Shown here piece by piece: positions 1,329-38,984 of a stretch of DNA of 64,000 nucleotides. The notes beneath the pieces were generated by a model, which worked only from the letters and a program-made list of their open reading frames with translations, was not told the origin of the DNA and did not search any database. Location of the stretch: NCBI RefSeq assembly GCF_014696925.1, contig NZ_JACJQY010000017.1:1-64000 (forward strand), written 5' to 3'. The number at the start of each line of letters is the position of its first letter. The stretch's first letter is position 1. The position numbers and the translations under genes are program-made. This DNA is from Phormidium tenue FACHB-1050. Its GTDB lineage: Bacteria; Cyanobacteriota; Cyanobacteriia; Pseudanabaenales; Pseudanabaenaceae.

Positions 1329-3653
1329 CTACAAAGTATGTCCCATGCGCTTAGGAATTGCCTCATTAAAGTTTTTAGTAATTTGCGCTAGGGATACAGC
1401 GATCGCCTTCTCTTTCCCCACCACGATCTCTAAATTCTGATCTGCATCACTTACATTGCCGATATGTTGCCAATTATTGCCTAACTGATTAGTGAGATAG
1501 GTTTCCCATGCATTGCGATCGCTATCTTTGACAGAAACGACAATTCGACTCGCACCTTCACCAAAGAGAACTTGAGTGAGATGTTGACTTTCAGGATTAG
1601 CGAGTTGAATTTGTGCCGTTAGTTTTCCAGAGATGCTTGATTCGGCGATCGCCACGGCTAGCCCACCTTCAGCACAATCATGAGCCGACTTTACTAATCC
1701 TTGGGTGATACCTTGACGACAAGCGAATTGCACTTTACGTTCTAGGTCAAAATCAACGGATTGTGGGCGACCTGTCACTTCCCCAATGACTGAAGCAAGA
1801 TATTCTGAACCAGCCAAACTAGTGCGATCGCTACCGAGTAGATAAATCGCATCGCCCACGGATTGCCAACCCTGACCGCAAACCTTGGTGACATCCTCGA
1901 CTAAGCCAACCATCCCAATTACAGGAGTCGGATAAATCGGTTGAGCGTTGCCTTCGGAGTCAATGGTTTCATTGTAGAGGGAGACATTGCCACCAGTCAC
2001 AGGCGTTGACAACTCGCGACAAGCATCGGCAATTCCCCGACAAGCTTCGTGAAGTTGCCAATAACCGATCGCATTTTCAGGACTGCCAAAGTTCAAATTA
2101 TCGGTGACAGATAGCGGTTCAGAGCCAACGCAGGAGAGATTACGTGCGGCTTCGGCAACTGCTAGTTTTGCACCTTCGTAAGGATCGAGATAAACATAAC
2201 GAGCATTGCAGTCAACCGTAGCGGCGACACCGACAAGAGAATCGATTTGAGCTTGGGATGATCCCAATTCGCCAACTCCAAAGCCTTGACTACGTAAACG
2301 AATCACCGCTGCATCGGCTCCCCCTGGAAAGATCACCGTATTATTTTGAACTTGGTGATCGTATTGACGATAGACCCATGATTTAGAGGCAATCACAGGA
2401 GTATCAAGTAATTGTAAAAGTGCATCATTCGGGGCAATGGATTTAAAGGCGGCGATCGCAGTTTTCTCTTCCCAAGCCCAAGCTTTCTTAGCATAGTCAG
2501 GAGTATCCGCTAGCTGACGATGATAGATGGGCGTATTGTCAGCGAGGGCTGTGGCAGGAATTTCCGCAGCAACTTCCCCATGCCAGAGAATCCGCACAAT
2601 TGGTTCCGCTAAAACTTCTCCAGCAACTACCGCATGAAGTCCCCAACGCTCAAAAATATCAATTAGTTCTTGTTCCCTTCCCTTATGCGCCACAAACAGC
2701 ATCCGTTCCTGTGATTCAGAAAGCAGATATTCATAGGGAGTCATGCCCGTTTCTCTAGCAGGAATTTTGTCTAGATCGAGAACTACACCAACACCGCCTT
2801 TAGCAGACATTTCGGAAGTAGAGCAAGTCAAACCCGCTGCTCCCATATCCTGTGCAGCAACAACTGCACCTGTTTTAAAAGCTTCCAAACAAGCTTCTAC
2901 TAGGGATTTTTCTAAAAAAGGATCGCCCACTTGTACCGCTGCTCGGTTCTGTTCTGATTTGCCAGAAATCTCCGTACTAGCAAAACTCGCTCCCTTGATG
3001 CCATCGCGCCCCGTAGTCGAACCCACATAAACCACAGGATTACCCACTCCCGCCGCACCCGATTTGACAATCTCCTTGGTTTCCATAATCCCGATCGCCA
3101 TCGCATTGACGAGGGGATTACGGTTATATGCCTTATCAAAATAGACTTCACCGCCCACAGTAGGAACGCCGATACAGTTGCCGTAACCAGCAATGCCATT
3201 GACGATGCCATTGACGCGACTACGCACCCAAGGATCAGAGAGTTCACCAAATCGCAGTGAATTCAAAATAGCGACGGGACGTGCTCCCATCGTAAAAATA
3301 TCACGCAAAATACCGCCGACACCTGTTGCCGCACCTTGGTATGGCTCCACAGCCGAAGGGCGGTTATGGCTTTCAATCTTAAAACTGATGGCAATATCAT
3401 CGGTAATTTTGACCACACCTGCATTTTCTCCAGGTCCAACGAGAATACGATCGCCTGTGGTGGGAAATTGCTTGAGTAACGGACGCGAATTTTTGTAGCA
3501 GCAATGCTCTGACCACATCACACCAAACATCCCTAATTCGGCTTTGTTAGGTTCACGACCAAGGCGATCGCAAATCATTTGATATTCATCAAGAGTCAAG
3601 CCCTCAGATTTAATTTCGGCTGCGGAAAATTTTGGTGTGGTACTGGCGGTCAT
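1329..3653 (-). CDS. purL: Phosphoribosylformylglycinamidine synthase subunit PurL
   Basis: Catalyses the ATP- and glutamine-dependent conversion of FGAR to FGAM in purine synthesis. This is the small-type PurL, about 774 residues, which works with PurQ and PurS (not in this window). Visible family features are [11 protein letters not shown] with the active-site His near the N-terminus, VGPGENAG, the [20 protein letters not shown] nucleotide-binding region, and the duplicated AIR-synthase-like halves (ALADNTP..., then [13 protein letters not shown]). The start is placed at the ATG whose product begins MTASTT, because the relic at 6203-6316 starts at the same point; an in-frame ATG seven codons upstream (3674) is an alternative. 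Confident assignment. Confidence 0.97.
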
Positions 3654-3801
3654 GGTTAGATCTGGGACAATCATTTACTTGCAATAATCATCTTATCGCA
3701 ACACCCTATTTTTTGCTGTAGTGCGATAGTCGGCTTCTTTGCAGATTTTGGTTCATCCGTTAAGATGGAAACACTAACTCGCAATTAAGTTGAAAAATAT
3801 C

Positions 3802-5034
3802 ATGTCCGATCGCCTGAAATTTTTCCGCAGGCTGATGTCAGCTTTTGAAGGTACTTCTAATCCTCAGCGTGCTGTCGAGCGAGGATTTTATGTCAATCTG
3901 CCAAATAATCCTGTGTCAGTGATTACTGCTAAAATTGCGCTCCGTCCCTCTTCGGTACATTTATTATTTGGTGGTATTGGATCGGGGAAAACAACGCAGT
4001 TACTGTTAACACAACAAGCTTTAAATGAATTAGAAGATATCAAAGCTATTTATGTTGATGTTAGTCTTGTTGCCGACATTTCTGATCTTCAATCTGGGGC
4101 TTTAATAGCGATCGCTGGAATTGAATTGATAACAATCTTAGGTTATATCGATGATAGTAAATTGAAAAGCTGCAAAAAGATAATTGAAAATGTGGCTTAT
4201 GGTTACAAAGAGACGAAAGTTATTTCATCTTTGAGCGAAAGCCTTAATACCTCTCTATCTATAATCCAATCGATGTCGCCAAGAGAAATAGTTACAAATC
4301 ATAAAGGATTACTCTCTCCTGAAAAGCAGGAAAATAAAGATCAAGTTTTACAAGCTTTTTCTGAATTGCATAAGGCTGCTCGAGAAAAAATAGAAAGAGA
4401 AATAGTTTTCCTTTTTGACGGTTTAGATAGATTGAGTGACTCGCAAGTTTTTATTGACTCTGCCTTAAATGACATAGTTGAAATTAAAAATGCTGGGATT
4501 GGTTCAGTTTTAGTTGGATCTGTTGTAACGATTTATAAGAAGAGAGAAAATATAACAAGTTTCGATAGTTCATCCTACTATTTGCCCTATCTTGATATTT
4601 TTGAAAGTGGTGAAGCACAGAATTTTTTTGCAGATGTCATAACAGCGAGAGATGGTGAAAATCTTATTAGTCCAGAAGTAAGAGAATTTCTGACTTTCAA
4701 ATCTGGAGGAGTCCTAAGAGATTTGATGTCTCTTTGCCAAGCTTCAATTGAGGAGGCATACATGGATGGATCAGATAGGATTATAAAACAACACGCAAAG
4801 CAAGCAGCTTTATCTCTAGCGCGTTCAAAAATAATTGGACTAACTGAATCTAATATAAGTATTCTTCGTCAAGTCATGACTGAAAAATATTTCTTCCCGC
4901 GTACAAGTGAAGATTTTGAACTGTTACTGACAGGACATATCTTGGAGTATAGATATCCACAACAAAGGTTTGTTGTTCACCCTATATTAGCTCCAATTAT
5001 TGAAAGTATGGTTGTAAGTGTGACTAATGGATAA
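3802..5034 (+). CDS. P-loop ATPase of a three-gene cassette, possibly defence
   Basis: About 410 residues. The Walker A motif is GGIGSGKTT (~57-65 from the ATG) and the Walker B motif VFLFDGLDRL (~200-210). A C-terminal helical region includes FKSGGVLRDLMSL, typical of AAA_16/KAP-like or STAND-like ATPases. There is no membrane segment. The ATG at 3802 is preferred over an in-frame TTG at 3790. It overlaps the next gene by 8 bp (ATGGATAA), indicating translational coupling. Codon use is AT-rich compared with purL. The function is unknown. As first gene of a compact cassette next to a purL scar, a role in defence or element maintenance is inferred, not shown. Confidence 0.8.
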   Translation: MSDRLKFFRRLMSAFEGTSNPQRAVERGFYVNLPNNPVSVITAKIALRPSSVHLLFGGIGSGKTTQLLLTQQALNELEDIKAIYVDVSLVADISDLQSGALIAIAGIELITILGYIDDSKLKSCKKIIENVAYGYKETKVISSLSESLNTSLSIIQSMSPREIVTNHKGLLSPEKQENKDQVLQAFSELHKAAREKIEREIVFLFDGLDRLSDSQVFIDSALNDIVEIKNAGIGSVLVGSVVTIYKKRENITSFDSSSYYLPYLDIFESGEAQNFFADVITARDGENLISPEVREFLTFKSGGVLRDLMSLCQASIEEAYMDGSDRIIKQHAKQAALSLARSKIIGLTESNISILRQVMTEKYFFPRTSEDFELLLTGHILEYRYPQQRFVVHPILAPIIESMVVSVTNG

Positions 5035-5623
5035 CCGATTTTCTTTAGATGAATTTCTACAAAGAAATGGAGGATTAATAGATAGCAATATCTGGATGGT
5101 TCTTGTTGTTGATATTAATGATATAGAAGCAATAGTTGCAGACTTAAAAGATACTATTGAGATTTTTAGTGAATGTATTACGGGTACTATATCTGGTAAA
5201 TTCGGAGCAAGAGCTTTAATTAACCAGATTAGTGAAGCATCAGAAGAATATTTTTTACTATGGGAATTAGATACTTGGGATAATAATGAATGGAAAATTT
5301 TCGATGCTTTAAGAAGTCGATTAGATAAAGGTAATAAAGGAGGATTAATTGTACTTTCTGAGCTAGCTAATGGTTTTATGATACATAACGCTCCTAACTT
5401 TGTTAGTTGGTTAGGGGCAAGAATATATTATTTACAAAAAGATGCAGAAATACTTAGTGATGAAGAATGCGATCGCCGTCTAGCTGCACTACAAGAATGG
5501 ACGGGCAAAACTAATGATGAAGTGATTGCTTTAGCTGAGAATCGTCAACTACCAACCGATCCAGAATATGGAGAGTGGCTAATTTTACTTAATCGAGGTG
5601 ACTTGCTTGAGCGACAAAAATAA
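5027..5623 (+). CDS. Unknown protein, second gene of ATPase cassette
   Basis: A 198-residue acidic protein with no signal peptide or membrane segment and no motif I recognise. A segment reading EEYFLLWELDTWDNNEWKIF, then RSRLDKGNKGGLIVLSE, has the alternating pattern of an alpha/beta fold resembling the ATPase partner's NTPase-like strands, but it lacks a Walker A. Its start overlaps the stop of the ATPase gene and its end overlaps the third gene, so the three are almost certainly co-translated. Confidence 0.75.
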   Translation: MDNRFSLDEFLQRNGGLIDSNIWMVLVVDINDIEAIVADLKDTIEIFSECITGTISGKFGARALINQISEASEEYFLLWELDTWDNNEWKIFDALRSRLDKGNKGGLIVLSELANGFMIHNAPNFVSWLGARIYYLQKDAEILSDEECDRRLAALQEWTGKTNDEVIALAENRQLPTDPEYGEWLILLNRGDLLERQK

Positions 5624-6185
5624 TTGGCAAACAATCTGTGCTGAGATTCAAGAACGCTCTTTAGGCAATACATATCTTGAAGTGAAAAACGCCACTTCTT
5701 TATGGGCAGAAATTTTAAAATGTTTAACAACTGCCAGTGATGAAAAGATTTTGAAAGCAAAGCAAGATGAAATTCGTAAATTGCTTAAAAAAGGTGCATC
5801 ATCTCAAATCAACAAAAAAGGCTATTCGGAAATTATGGGTGGAGGAAAAAATTTCAATCGTATTCAAGACATTCCTCATTTTAAACTTCACAATGGTTGC
5901 TGGTTTGATTTTGCAATCACTATCGATGAAACTGGCAAACCTGCTCAAATTATAGGATTTGATTTTGAAATAAGGTTTCCTCAAAAAGAAGGAGAGACTA
6001 AAGTTCCTTTTCTAAGAATTGATCTCAATCTGCCAGATCATAACAACGATGAGCGAAATATACGTTTTCATCTCCATCCTAGCAATGACGATATTATGAT
6101 CCACAGCCCACCAATGTCACCTCTAGAAATTCTGCATATGTTTCTTTATGGCATAAACATCCCAGACAAACCACGCTCTTCTTAA
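5607..6185 (+). CDS. Unknown protein, third gene of ATPase cassette
   Basis: About 192 residues. The start is probably TTG at 5607 (MSDKNNW) behind GAGGTG; GTG at 5598 is also possible. Either start lies inside the end of the preceding gene. The C-terminal half looks like a small beta-rich domain with conserved-looking His/Pro motifs (IRFHLHPSNDD, then SPPMSPLEILHMFLYG). I do not recognise the family. A separate ORF in another frame (5767-5955) is a shadow. Transcription probably ends before the relic that follows. Confidence 0.75.
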   Translation: MSDKNNWQTICAEIQERSLGNTYLEVKNATSLWAEILKCLTTASDEKILKAKQDEIRKLLKKGASSQINKKGYSEIMGGGKNFNRIQDIPHFKLHNGCWFDFAITIDETGKPAQIIGFDFEIRFPQKEGETKVPFLRIDLNLPDHNNDERNIRFHLHPSNDDIMIHSPPMSPLEILHMFLYGINIPDKPRSS

Positions 6186-6202
6186 AACACTCAAAATTTT
6201 AC

Positions 6203-6316
6203 TTTGTTGGGTTCACTATTTAGGCGATCGCAAATCATCTGATATTCAACAAGGGTTAAGCCCTCAGATTTGATTTCGGCTGGGGAAACCTTGGTTGTGA
6301 TGATATTTGCAGTCAT
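6203..6316 (-). pseudogene. Relic of a second purL 5' end (38 codons)
   Basis: Read on the minus strand from 6316, this gives MTANIITTKVSP, then [20 protein letters not shown], then NSEPNK. It matches the start of the intact purL ([26 protein letters not shown]) with scattered codon changes and one codon insertion. The frame then meets a stop. It lies in the same orientation as purL, on the far side of the three-gene cassette. The divergence indicates a homologue from a related strain or an old duplication rather than a recent copy. Confidence 0.9.
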
Positions 6317-6407
6317 ATAGCAGTCCTATATTATTTGTGGATTTTTTTGGTTTGTGGAAGGACATCCCGATGGGGTGTCCTTCCACAAACCATTTAGGAT
6401 TGCTATA
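6316..6407. repeat. TATAGC-ended MITE with TTTGTGGAA hairpin
   Basis: The ends are TATAGCAGTCCTA and the complementary TAGGATTGCTATA. Inside is a hairpin (about 6349-6392) with outer GGTTTGTGGAA and an inner stem GGACATCCC paired with GGGGTGTCC, including a T-G wobble. A second copy is at 20190-20280. It starts directly at the start codon of the purL relic, just as the second copy starts at the first possible codon of rph. Confidence 0.75.
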
Positions 6408-35978: not shown

Positions 35979-37115
35979 ATGTCTGAACAAGTCAAGCCAA
36001 TTCAAAAGATTCTTTTTGGTAGCCCTGGTACTGGTAAAAGCTATCAAGTCCGTGAAATAGCTAAGAATGAATTGCTTATTCCGTTCGATGAAGATACGAA
36101 AACGCTGAGAAATACAATTAAGACTGTATTTCACCCAGAGTATACCTATGCGGATTTTATGGGGAAGTTGTTGCCGTTAACTCAAAGTGGCTCAATTATC
36201 TACAAGTTTTATTCAGGGCATTTTCTTCGCATTTTGGGAATGGCTTATAAGGCGTTAATCGATGGTAGTAATGAAAATTTCTTGTTGGTAATTGATGAGT
36301 TGAATCGGGGGAATGCTGCTGCTATTTTTGGAACTGTATTTCAATTGCTTGATCGCGAAAGTGATGGATGGTCGAGCTATGAAGTAGATATTTCGGATAT
36401 GGAATTATTTGGGTTACTTAAAGAAATGCATTTCAACCCAGTTATTCAAGACGAAAATTTTTTAATCAAGCCTAATCTTACAAAAAGCAATACTAGTACT
36501 TTAGAAGATTTTTTTGAAAATCAGGCTGCAGATGCGTTAAAAAGGGAAAAATTTTATGGAGCCAGAGTCTTTAATCTTCTAAAGAATCGCCGAATTAATA
36601 TCCCAAGTAACTTATCTATCATTGCCACAATTAACACATCAGATGAATCAATTTATTATCTTGATAGTGCTTTTAAGAGGCGATGGGATTGGGAATATAT
36701 TAATTTATATTCAGGGAAATCGGGATTCAAAGTTATTCATCCTGATTTTGAATCAGTTTATTTGACAATTAACGATCAGCAAAAAGTGAAATGGGCATAC
36801 TATATTATTGGTATTAATGAGTTTATAAAATCTAATTATCAATCGATTAGAAGAATTGAAGATAAGCAAATTGGTTGGTGGTTTATTAAACCTGAAGATG
36901 GGAAAGTAGAAATCCAACAAGTCAGAGATAAGTTAATGTTTTATCTTTGGGATAGTGTATTTGCAAGAGATAAAAAACCTCTGGAAAGTCTTTTGTCTAC
37001 TGAGAGTAAATCGATCAAATTAACTCAATATTCAGATTTTTTAGATTTAATAGATGATTTTATGGAAAAAATCTATAAAATTGGATATGCTAATTATATA
37101 GATGATTATTTCTGA
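35979..37115 (+). CDS. McrB-type AAA+ restriction NTPase
   Basis: 378 residues. Walker A FGSPGTGKS (~13-21), Walker B LLVIDELNRGNAAAIFG (~102-118; the ELNRGN signature is specific to McrB-like NTPases) and sensor/arginine-finger stretch IATINTSDESIYYLDSAFKR. McrB normally hydrolyses GTP and powers DNA translocation for its nuclease partner. It has no N-terminal DNA-recognition domain (it starts directly at the NTPase), so recognition must lie in the partner or in an insert (for example ~140-200). AT-rich and coupled to the next gene (18 bp). Confidence 0.88.
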   Translation: MSEQVKPIQKILFGSPGTGKSYQVREIAKNELLIPFDEDTKTLRNTIKTVFHPEYTYADFMGKLLPLTQSGSIIYKFYSGHFLRILGMAYKALIDGSNENFLLVIDELNRGNAAAIFGTVFQLLDRESDGWSSYEVDISDMELFGLLKEMHFNPVIQDENFLIKPNLTKSNTSTLEDFFENQAADALKREKFYGARVFNLLKNRRINIPSNLSIIATINTSDESIYYLDSAFKRRWDWEYINLYSGKSGFKVIHPDFESVYLTINDQQKVKWAYYIIGINEFIKSNYQSIRRIEDKQIGWWFIKPEDGKVEIQQVRDKLMFYLWDSVFARDKKPLESLLSTESKSIKLTQYSDFLDLIDDFMEKIYKIGYANYIDDYF

Positions 37116-37133
37116 TGTAATTTCTTAATCATT

Positions 37134-38984
37134 ATGATTGATTTTAAATCCATAAAACTTACTGCAATCAATAAATATTCTTTTGTTGGTATTGAAAAAA
37201 AAGAAGGAATACTTTGCTTTTATTTGCCTAAAGGTTTTAGTGAAAATATTGATGAATTAAGTGGATTTAGCAAGAAACGTGATCTCTTTTTTTTATTCTA
37301 TAAAATTTTCGATGTGTTCAGAAAAATCTGTGCGGAGAAAGGATATTTAGACAAAGTTGATGAATTTGCTAAAAAAGATCGTGATGGGGTAATCAAATCT
37401 ATTAGAGGTTCTGGAACTGAAGATGATGGTGATGACTCAGAAAATATTTTTTACTCTAAGTTAGATATTATCGGCAGTTTGTTAGATGTATATGACGAAC
37501 CTAAAATTTTGTCTCTTGCTTATCGATTAGGAAGAAGTGACAAATTTGATGTTAGTCAGATTCATAAGTATTTACATCAAGCTGTATATCTACCAAATAA
37601 TGCTGCTTATGTCGATCAAATGCTTTTGCCTAAAAAGGTATTGCAATTTGAATCAACAGATATTGTCTCAATTTATTGCTATCTATTTTGTGAAGTTAAG
37701 CAACAACTTAAAGAAAGTGTAAGTACAGAGATTACATCATTATCTGAGAGATTTCGTGAAAAATATTTAAGAAGTAGTGATAGTCTTTTTGAAGAACAGA
37801 GCTATGAACATGTCTTAGATATTCTTAAAGATGCTTTAGAAACTATCAATCATAATACTCCAATTAAAGATGCTGACTATTGGGAGTATTACGAAGCTAT
37901 TGAATTATTTCTATATGGCGATCTAAACAAGGAAGAAGATGGTGAGATATGGGGAGTTTCAAATTTTCATAGTGTTTGGGAATCAATGTGCTTGATATAC
38001 ATTGCTCAAAACACGGATTCATCAGATGTTTTACATTTAGATTGTAAATATGTAAGTAATATCATAGTAGAAATAATTCAGGCATCTACTAAAAACATAA
38101 TCTTACACAACACATTTAAGGTTAATGATAGTTTTTTAAATCCCGATGCAGTTATTTTTTCATCTGTTATCAATCAAATAAGAGTTGATAAAATCGACTA
38201 TAAAATAAATAGTTCCTCATGGGATGACTATGGTTACAAAACTTCTATTGAGGGAGATATAGCCTGTAACATCGCCTATATTGGACAACCTACTGGTATT
38301 TATAGTATTGAGAAGTTAAGAGAATTTTATCCGTTTGATGAGAGAAGGCAAACAATAAGAATTAACAGACGATTGCCTTTAAACTTTTACTCTTTCTGGC
38401 ATATCACTAATGATATCAGTAATTATGATCTTGTAAAAATGCATAACTTTAATCATTTATTCTATATAGCTTTAGAAAAACATATTAGTATATGGGATGA
38501 TTTCGTTCAAGAAATTCTTCAGCCCTTAAATATCTCTTGCGATGACTATTCTTCCTACTTTCATAAAAGTTTTGAATGTAATGTTTTTACTGATTCATTT
38601 TTCCGAAACTTGACTCCCCAAGAGTTAAAAGAAAAATTTACTAGCTTTATAAAGCTAATATCCAATCGTTTCAACAGCATGTTTAATTTTGACATTATTG
38701 ACATTAAATATATGAATTCAGATTACTTCAAAGATTCTACTAAAATTGAAGAAATTAAAAGTAGAAGCGTTCGCAAACAATTTGTTTATGAATACTTGCT
38801 TCAGAAATATTTAGACCAAAGAAAAGATAAATTTAGTGATTTGCCTATTCGCAGTAGTTTCTGGTTGCCCAGCTACCGACCCGATGATCCTAACTTAATA
38901 GAAGAGGGAGAAACCTTTATGGACGGCTATATTCAACTAAAAAATATTAACTTTGCAGTATTAGCCGAGAATTACATAGCATAA
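37134..38984 (+). CDS. Restriction nuclease partner, McrC/LlaJI-like
   Basis: 616 residues, AT-rich. The C-terminal half contains VWESMCLIYIAQ, then FLNPDAVIFSS and, ~14 residues later, VDKIDYKIN: the spacing of a PD-(D/E)XK nuclease core as in LlaJI- and McrC-type proteins. The N-terminal ~250 residues are helical and not recognised. No DNA methyltransferase is adjacent, so a modification-dependent (type IV) system or an incomplete one is more likely than a LlaJI-type R-M set. Family placement is by motif only. Confidence 0.72.
   Translation: MIDFKSIKLTAINKYSFVGIEKKEGILCFYLPKGFSENIDELSGFSKKRDLFFLFYKIFDVFRKICAEKGYLDKVDEFAKKDRDGVIKSIRGSGTEDDGDDSENIFYSKLDIIGSLLDVYDEPKILSLAYRLGRSDKFDVSQIHKYLHQAVYLPNNAAYVDQMLLPKKVLQFESTDIVSIYCYLFCEVKQQLKESVSTEITSLSERFREKYLRSSDSLFEEQSYEHVLDILKDALETINHNTPIKDADYWEYYEAIELFLYGDLNKEEDGEIWGVSNFHSVWESMCLIYIAQNTDSSDVLHLDCKYVSNIIVEIIQASTKNIILHNTFKVNDSFLNPDAVIFSSVINQIRVDKIDYKINSSSWDDYGYKTSIEGDIACNIAYIGQPTGIYSIEKLREFYPFDERRQTIRINRRLPLNFYSFWHITNDISNYDLVKMHNFNHLFYIALEKHISIWDDFVQEILQPLNISCDDYSSYFHKSFECNVFTDSFFRNLTPQELKEKFTSFIKLISNRFNSMFNFDIIDIKYMNSDYFKDSTKIEEIKSRSVRKQFVYEYLLQKYLDQRKDKFSDLPIRSSFWLPSYRPDDPNLIEEGETFMDGYIQLKNINFAVLAENYIA

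Follow-up and report, generated by a model that had tools for sequence, protein, structure and literature searches.

Contig NZ_JACJQY010000017.1 of the cyanobacterium Phormidium tenue FACHB-1050 (NCBI RefSeq assembly GCF_014696925.1) carries next to purL three overlapping genes, here called A, B and C (Table 1). Positions 1 to 64,000 of the forward strand of this contig are the stretch that was analyzed and are referred to as the window. A sequence-only reading of the window, made without database searches, had taken the trio for a candidate undescribed defence or maintenance system, of a make-up typical of mobile defence cargo, on the grounds that the genes overlap, are AT-rich relative to their neighbours, encode a P-loop ATPase together with two proteins of no recognised family, and are flanked by a scar. 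All of these features were found again in the present analysis.

Gene A starts with ATG (TTG at 3790 is also possible) and gene C with GTG; A and B overlap by 8 bp, B and C by 26 bp. The G+C content of A, B and C is 0.358, 0.337 and 0.355, as compared with a window mean of 0.421 (standard deviation 0.044), calculated from the 42 open reading frames (ORFs) of at least 150 amino acids (aa) that a simple ORF caller kept. At the nine other loci measured, the trio was each time lower in G+C than its flanks, by 0.007 (L057) to 0.099. A scan with the alignment of C against contigs of one genome per species yielded 22 trio loci, all titled as cyanobacterial taxa, and the order A-B-C was constant across them wherever the contig was long enough and no gene had decayed; the sequence-only reading had proposed to check whether the trio is conserved as a unit, and it is.

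Searches of A, B and C against Pfam, PADLOC and NCBIfam revealed no significant family, and a literature search, whose coverage left out most subscription journals, revealed no description of the trio or of a defence site at purL. The trio is thus a real, conserved unit that matches no named family in the libraries searched; it is more than a chance assembly, because the gene order is kept among relatives and because the ratio of nonsynonymous to synonymous substitution rates (dN/dS) is 0.06-0.37.

Table 1. Genes at the trio locus, a further gene pair of the window, and displaced purL starts in Pseudanabaena (G numbers denote genomes).
Feature	Positions	Strand	Description	Basis
Gene A	3802-5034	+	410-aa P-loop ATPase, AAA+/STAND-ORC type	motifs, hhalign
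Gene B	5027-5623	+	198-aa protein of predicted AAA+ fold without P-loop and Walker B; core plus helical end	model
Gene C	5598-6185	+	195-aa orphan alpha+beta protein, candidate effector	model, library searches
purL	1329-3674	-	first ~150 nt 82% identical to near relative G394, rest (from nt 150 on) 91-100%	
Spacer between purL and A	3675-3801		127 bp; alike in the purL-linked copies G388 and G387, unlike the region upstream of purL in G394 and G390	
Broken second purL 5' end	6185-6334	-	beyond C; codons 2-50, internal stops	
ORF pair (378 aa and 616 aa)	35979-38984	+	G+C 0.32 and 0.30	
Displaced purL start with trio			window, G388, G387	
Displaced purL start with Uma2			G387, G388	
Displaced purL start with Eco57I-type restriction-modification protein			G395 (adjoining); G388 (two genes further on, after Uma2)	
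Displaced purL start with 923-aa KGGVGR/PDC-M28B-like ATPase and 141-aa partner			G346; remnants in G402	

The three proteins and their relatives

Protein A contains the P-loop GGIGSGKTT and, within VFLFDGLDRL, a Walker B motif. In sets of 9 and 19 homologues, the P-loop and the Walker B sequence DGLDRL show little or no variation. Strong matches to A (E < 1e-70) were found in 9 of 244 genomes sampled. In Pfam, A had only sub-threshold matches, among others to ATPase_2, AAA_22, KAP and NACHT, and none over the cut-off; profile searches of the PDB sequences with A and with C gave nothing useful, ORC4 appearing at E 0.017 below low-complexity armadillo designs. The mean column conservation of A is 0.46-0.84 per 20-residue block, with the exception of residues 121-200 (0.20-0.49) and of the last ten residues (0.30). 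When four regions were compared in the 13 close pairs listed, that from 113 to 195 was the least alike in nine pairs. This variable stretch, which precedes Walker B, could be a recognition or sensing surface.

Along its length A is homologous to cyanobacterial ATPases of approximately 430 aa (hhalign probability 99.8%, E 2e-28, 377 columns), a score that none of 200 column shuffles reached. One of these relatives is encoded in the same genome as the window (G000:C6). As a group they match weakly the Sll1717 (NF047389), KAP (PF07693) and nSTAND5 (PF25199) ATPases, KAP over the cut-off; A itself differs in that it stays under every cut-off. In all seven loci inspected, the gene following the ~430-aa ATPase gene encodes a protein that opens with a common start domain, and the three partner proteins run through Pfam have TPR or NACHT plus TPR tails (the end of locus L012 truncates one partner). 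With a profile of the start domain, proteins were matched in 72 of 292 cyanobacterial genomes, and in 27 of 30 loci drawn from this search the ATPase gene lay directly upstream on the same strand at a distance of -10 to +141 nt; of the remaining three loci two are incomplete, and the other has an ATPase outside the distance set. A widespread cyanobacterial pair of this kind, a ~430-aa ATPase and a protein with a B-like start, can be seen at L075-L104 and at L040:8750-11964.

For protein B, AlphaFold2 predicted an AAA+ core (predicted local distance difference test, pLDDT, 83.3; predicted template modelling score, pTM, 0.64). The model matches in the PDB the AAA+ domains of RFC and dynein with Z values of about 11 over 121-124 aligned residues (root mean square deviation, rmsd, 2.8-3.1) and ORC and TnsC with Z values of about 10; MuB is also among the fold matches. 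Inspection of 19 homologues of B by eye revealed neither a P-loop nor a Walker B acid, so B should not hydrolyse ATP. None of the 19 members of the B alignment had a significant Pfam match (best E 0.015). B is considered to be AAA+ by model only, because a comparison with A by hhalign gave 0.4% and recovered no sequence relation. We speak of B as a predicted nucleotide-dead AAA+ partner.

A comparison of B with the start domain of the TPR proteins gave a P value of 0.0066 at an hhalign probability of only 5.7%, with the motif AP[ND]F.SW in register. The score was reached by 1 of 200 and by 1 of 150 shuffles, and by 12 of 150 when the roles were exchanged; one null score of approximately 133-134 in the B shuffles, which is unexplained, was counted as an exceedance. 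Two start-domain proteins in a set of 75 ORFs were matched by the hidden Markov model of B with 12-13 bits. These scores suggest, without proving it, that B is related to the domain with which the TPR proteins begin; because both are of the same fold class and occupy the same place in the operon, we take the relationship as likely.

The model of protein C (pLDDT 80.7, pTM 0.77) has three helices (7-22, 32-48 and 56-62), followed by seven strands within residues 63-161 and by a last helix at 175-185. The motifs conserved in C are W-F-D-F, F-x-F-E-I, R-x-D-L-N-x-P-x-H-x-N, R-F-H-x-H-P and P-x-E-I-L. The sequence-only reading had remarked on a conserved-looking end of C, and in the 18 homologues eight C-terminal residues are in fact invariant (H158, H160, P161, H169, P175, E177, I178 and L179), as are C101-F105, E124, R140, D142, N144, H148 and R156 further upstream. 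Pfam and PHROGs searches with all members of the C alignment gave nothing significant. The C model had no credible match among viral protein models and none in the PDB, where the best was VIA (Z 5.7, rmsd 4.3, 107 residues); absent fold matches do not show that the fold of C is new. A profile of C run at E values up to 1 against 292 genomes retrieved only whole or broken trio copies and, from E 0.0067 on, noise, and found no bridge to another family. C has so far been seen only within whole or broken copies of the trio.

In alignments, the C pattern R-x-D...H...H-x-H, followed by a helix or a conserved I-L, resembles that of the TumE toxins and of DUF6978. The hhalign P values were 0.027 for DUF6978 and 0.064 for TumE, in register and without significance. 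Depending on the direction, the C/TumE score was reached by 16 or by none of 150 column shuffles and the C/DUF6978 score by 3 or by 18 of 150; in separate sets of 200 shuffles the scores were reached by 17 and by 3. When the 18 C proteins were compared with Pfam, TumE (PF20126) was not listed at E ≤ 1 and DUF6978 (PF22398) was listed for one member at E 0.083. C did not reach the profile cut-off of either family and is not assigned to them, but a distant relationship is possible, and the resemblance is kept as a lead. The TumE fold is described as an antiparallel sheet of seven strands with two helices on it and with no match in the PDB; the protein is toxic and lowers methionine incorporation (PMC10584680). 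The genome containing the window encodes elsewhere three proteins matching the TumE family (C36:24399-24653, C3:1751-2002 and C3:64311-64556).

Genomic sites, selection and decay

In the window the trio sits between purL and the remains of a second purL start, whose translation is 64-65% identical in amino acid sequence to the intact one; this is the scar of the sequence-only reading. The first 150 nt of the window purL, which are the part least like G394 (Table 1), reach 95% identity with other lineages. Because the purL start is mosaic and because the spacer is common to other purL-linked copies, we infer that the trio arrived together with a foreign purL start, probably via recombination in purL.

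The genus of the window genome, judged by its closest named matches, is Pseudanabaena. Among the Pseudanabaena genomes with C, the trio is located at purL in 3 of 11. Displaced purL starts are present in 6 of the 26 genomes of the genus; a purL match was obtained in 25 of them, and in 20 of these the surroundings of the gene were examined. The genes found beside displaced purL starts include, in addition to the trio, those for Uma2, for a restriction-modification protein and for a PADLOC defence candidate, the PDC-M28B-like protein (match to PDC-M28B at E 2e-15 in G346). The G346 protein, which together with its 141-aa partner (L184:2904-6100) is encoded between purL and a displaced purL 5' end, has an AAA domain with the variant motif KGGVGR and a Sll1717-like ATPase region under the cut-off. 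In 9 of the 14 genomes without a displaced start one and the same CheW-like gene lies within two genes upstream of purL, and in G402 and G395 this gene adjoins the displaced purL start instead. As in what follows, neighbouring genes were named by eye from their translations, except those run through Pfam.

That the trio is part of a mobile element, with A and B as transposition-type AAA+ regulators like TnsC or MuB and C acting on DNA, would agree with the presence of these two proteins among the fold matches of B and with the different places of the locus in Pseudanabaena genomes. We consider it highly improbable: the unit contains no transposase, what is left behind is a long purL 5' end and not a short duplication of the target, which fits host recombination, and many AAA+ families score equally against B.

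Six of the 11 Pseudanabaena genomes with C share another trio site, beside a kinase gene of the APH/AAA_33 type (L145-L149 and L152; Pfam of one). Outside the genus the trio has as neighbours cysS (L032), purA and a gyrase-like gene (L033), ligA (L054, L056), a MiaB-type gene (L059) and a hisD-like gene (L062), and in several Nostocales it follows proA (L034-L039, L051, L053, L061, L064; some of these are from the same genome). In all, C was found in 8 of the 386 cyanobacterial genomes sampled and in 11 of the 26 Pseudanabaena genomes.

In eight Pseudanabaena pairs per gene (24 gene-by-pair comparisons), dN/dS calculated after Nei and Gojobori was overall lowest for C (0.06-0.23), the ranges of A and B being 0.23-0.37 and 0.07-0.34. 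These ratios show at the level of sequence that the trio is under purifying selection. Since the synonymous rate dS differs several-fold between the three genes within one pair (window versus G396: A 0.90, B 0.21, C 0.61), the operon itself is mosaic.

The decay of the trio was surveyed in 35 copies, three of which (G406, L060 and G133) run into a contig end. Of the 32 assessable copies, 23 have all three ORFs intact. In six (L061, L064, L065, L034, L037 and L039) A is whole but B or C is disrupted or absent, in three (L063, G388 and L226) A and C are both broken, and no copy combines a broken A with an intact C. L034 and L037, being closely related, possibly reflect a single event, and the contig of L037 ends before C can be judged. 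This one-sided decay is compatible with C being harmful and the first gene to be lost, but also with C being only more dispensable. In the related genomes of L034 (11237-13260) and L037 (4695-4910) B is truncated where short coding repeats of the type P-K-I-L-x-I-L-I-Q-T-N begin, and in a cyanobacterial metagenome-assembled genome C is interrupted by an ORF of 329 aa that looks like a transposase gene (L065:4950-5939).

The decay pattern bears on the possibility that the trio is an addiction module similar to toxin-antitoxin pairs, in which C would be the toxin and B, together with A, the restraint, the locus being retained without any sensing of phages. The overlap of the genes, the occurrence of C only together with A and B, the one-sided decay and the resemblance of the C motifs to those of TumE and DUF6978 speak for it. 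Against it, an antitoxin of the size of A and B would be unusual, no C accompanies the related two-gene family, as judged by the C profile in the 292 genomes of which 72 match the partner profile, and the 18 C proteins have no TumE match and no significant DUF6978 match in Pfam. We consider an addiction module unlikely.

Elsewhere in the window two adjacent ORFs (Table 1) have the lowest G+C content of the window ORFs measured. The 378-aa protein matches AAA_5, and the 616-aa protein has no Pfam match at E 0.001. They are possibly another defence pair, with an order that we take to be McrBC-like.

Proposed function and comparison with known systems

From the motifs of A, the modelled fold of B, the constant gene order, the purifying selection, the mosaic purL start and the displaced starts in related genomes we arrived at the proposal that the trio is a small STAND/AAA+ conflict system, in which a switch composed of an active and a dead AAA+ protein would control the effector C in a defence of the abortive-infection type. 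The chances for and against this proposal appear to us to be about even. A would be the nucleotide-driven switch, and its variable stretch before Walker B could sense. B would be the nucleotide-dead partner and would form a joint assembly with A, something that may also occur in the related two-gene family. The A-B assembly would keep C inactive and would release or activate it upon infection, the trigger being presumably a phage. Freed C, putatively toxic, would most likely arrest the host cell and thus lead to self-killing, i.e., to abortive infection. Also in favour of the proposal are the homology of A to the ATPases of the two-gene family, the variable stretch of A, the number of copies with three intact ORFs, the one-sided decay, the patchy and mosaic occurrence and, as a precedent, the pair of an active and an eroded STAND protein predicted by Kaur et al. 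(PMC8195603).

In a more far-reaching form the proposal reads that the cassette is an undescribed immune switch, whose active ATPase and dead partner would together restrain and set free a separately encoded effector, C, of a new superfamily, and that it is passed between cyanobacteria by recombination in the purL start, a site that collects restriction and other defence genes. We put this form forward tentatively and regard it as somewhat improbable.

Several findings weigh against the conflict system. The main one is that most neighbours outside of the genus Pseudanabaena are, judged by eye, housekeeping genes and that the site in Nostocales is stable. No relatives of the trio were found in viral contigs (searched with C alone and with the alignments of A, B and C), none of A, B or C in the PLSDB plasmids, and none of A or C in phage records. 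Some genomes have retained A without B and C, and a different role of A is therefore possible. The PADLOC 2.0 profiles gave as best match of A QatA at E 0.0036 and none for B or C; C is without an assignable fold or catalytic family; and the link of B to the TPR proteins is not significant in one of the two shuffle directions. The candidate hotspot at purL was seen in six genomes, all from a single genus. Moreover, Uma2 adjoins purL without a displaced start in G407, G397 and G401, from which it follows that the neighbours of purL are not always insertions of the trio kind. Finally, the broken purL start is nearer to the purL of G388 (92% over 98 nt) than to that of G394 (82% over 116 nt) and is therefore not proven to be the old start of the window lineage.

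These findings bear on a further alternative, which we rate as rather improbable, that A, B and C form a housekeeping or regulatory ATPase complex of cyanobacteria, inherited vertically and lost repeatedly. The common sites at proA in Nostocales and in the six Pseudanabaena genomes, the housekeeping neighbours, the purifying selection, the retention of A and the lack of copies in viral contigs, plasmids and phage records speak for such a complex. The patchy occurrence of C both in the cyanobacteria sampled and within the genus, the presence of at least two sites within that genus, the mosaic purL with its broken second start, the mosaic operon and the AT-richness relative to the flanks in 9 of 9 loci argue against it. 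Vertical conservation among housekeeping neighbours, which the sequence-only reading had named as evidence that would count against its proposal, is thus found in part: the neighbours, the proA site and the site shared by six genomes of the genus agree with it, but the trio is patchy, often decayed and mosaic. Of the mobile defence cargo that was suggested, the defence setting has gained some ground, since the purL site used by three of the 11 copies of the genus holds elsewhere in the genus a restriction-modification protein or a defence candidate, and the mobility has lost some, since viral, plasmid and phage copies are lacking. On the whole, the interpretation as a defence system is supported in part; it is plausible and has better grounds than it had before.

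If the conflict system is confirmed, the trio would be a minimal, three-protein form of the switch composed of an active and a dead STAND protein, which has so far been predicted in multi-domain proteins, and the control of an effector by a dead STAND protein could be studied experimentally on proteins of only 195-410 residues. A new effector family would be represented by C, and defence genes in Pseudanabaena would have an insertion site at the 5' end of purL, where the footprint of a displaced start could help to find more systems.

Several systems invite comparison. In TumE-TumA the motif order R-x-D, H and H-x-H of the toxin is similar to that in the C-terminal part of C, and the C model likewise has seven strands and no match in the PDB, the TumE structure having been compared by its description only; C differs in lacking a profile match, in being longer and in being paired with AAA+ proteins rather than with a TumA antitoxin. 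The pairs of ATPases with TPR or NACHT-TPR proteins resemble the trio, their ATPase being homologous to A along its length, their partner starting with a domain that may be related to B, and the genes having the same order and being adjacent or overlapping; they differ in the long tails of the partner and in having no C.

The ternary system of MoxR, vWA and iSTAND proteins is described as composed of an inactive STAND protein, an active AAA+ protein and effectors, and as concentrated in cyanobacteria among others (PMC7159879). Pfam revealed no MoxR or vWA match in A, B and C, and the flanking genes, judged by eye, gave none either. The trio thus differs from that system by the lack of a MoxR or vWA protein, and it is like it in joining a predicted inactive STAND-type component, an active AAA+ protein and a candidate effector.

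A two-gene nSTAND2 conflict system was predicted by Kaur et al. in 2021 (PMC8195603). In this system an active STAND protein adjoins an eroded, nucleotide-dead one; the latter carries effectors as fusions, GT4 and HEPN being the most frequent, and a mixed ring is predicted to deploy the effector. We have not filed the trio under nSTAND2, because the fused effector is absent. In the trio, B is a bare AAA+ domain of 198 aa that ends after a helical stretch without being fused to an effector, and C is the product of a separate gene and of no known family. What the trio has in common with the nSTAND2 system is the adjacent position of an active AAA+ protein, A with its P-loop and Walker B, and of B, which the model predicts to be a dead one.

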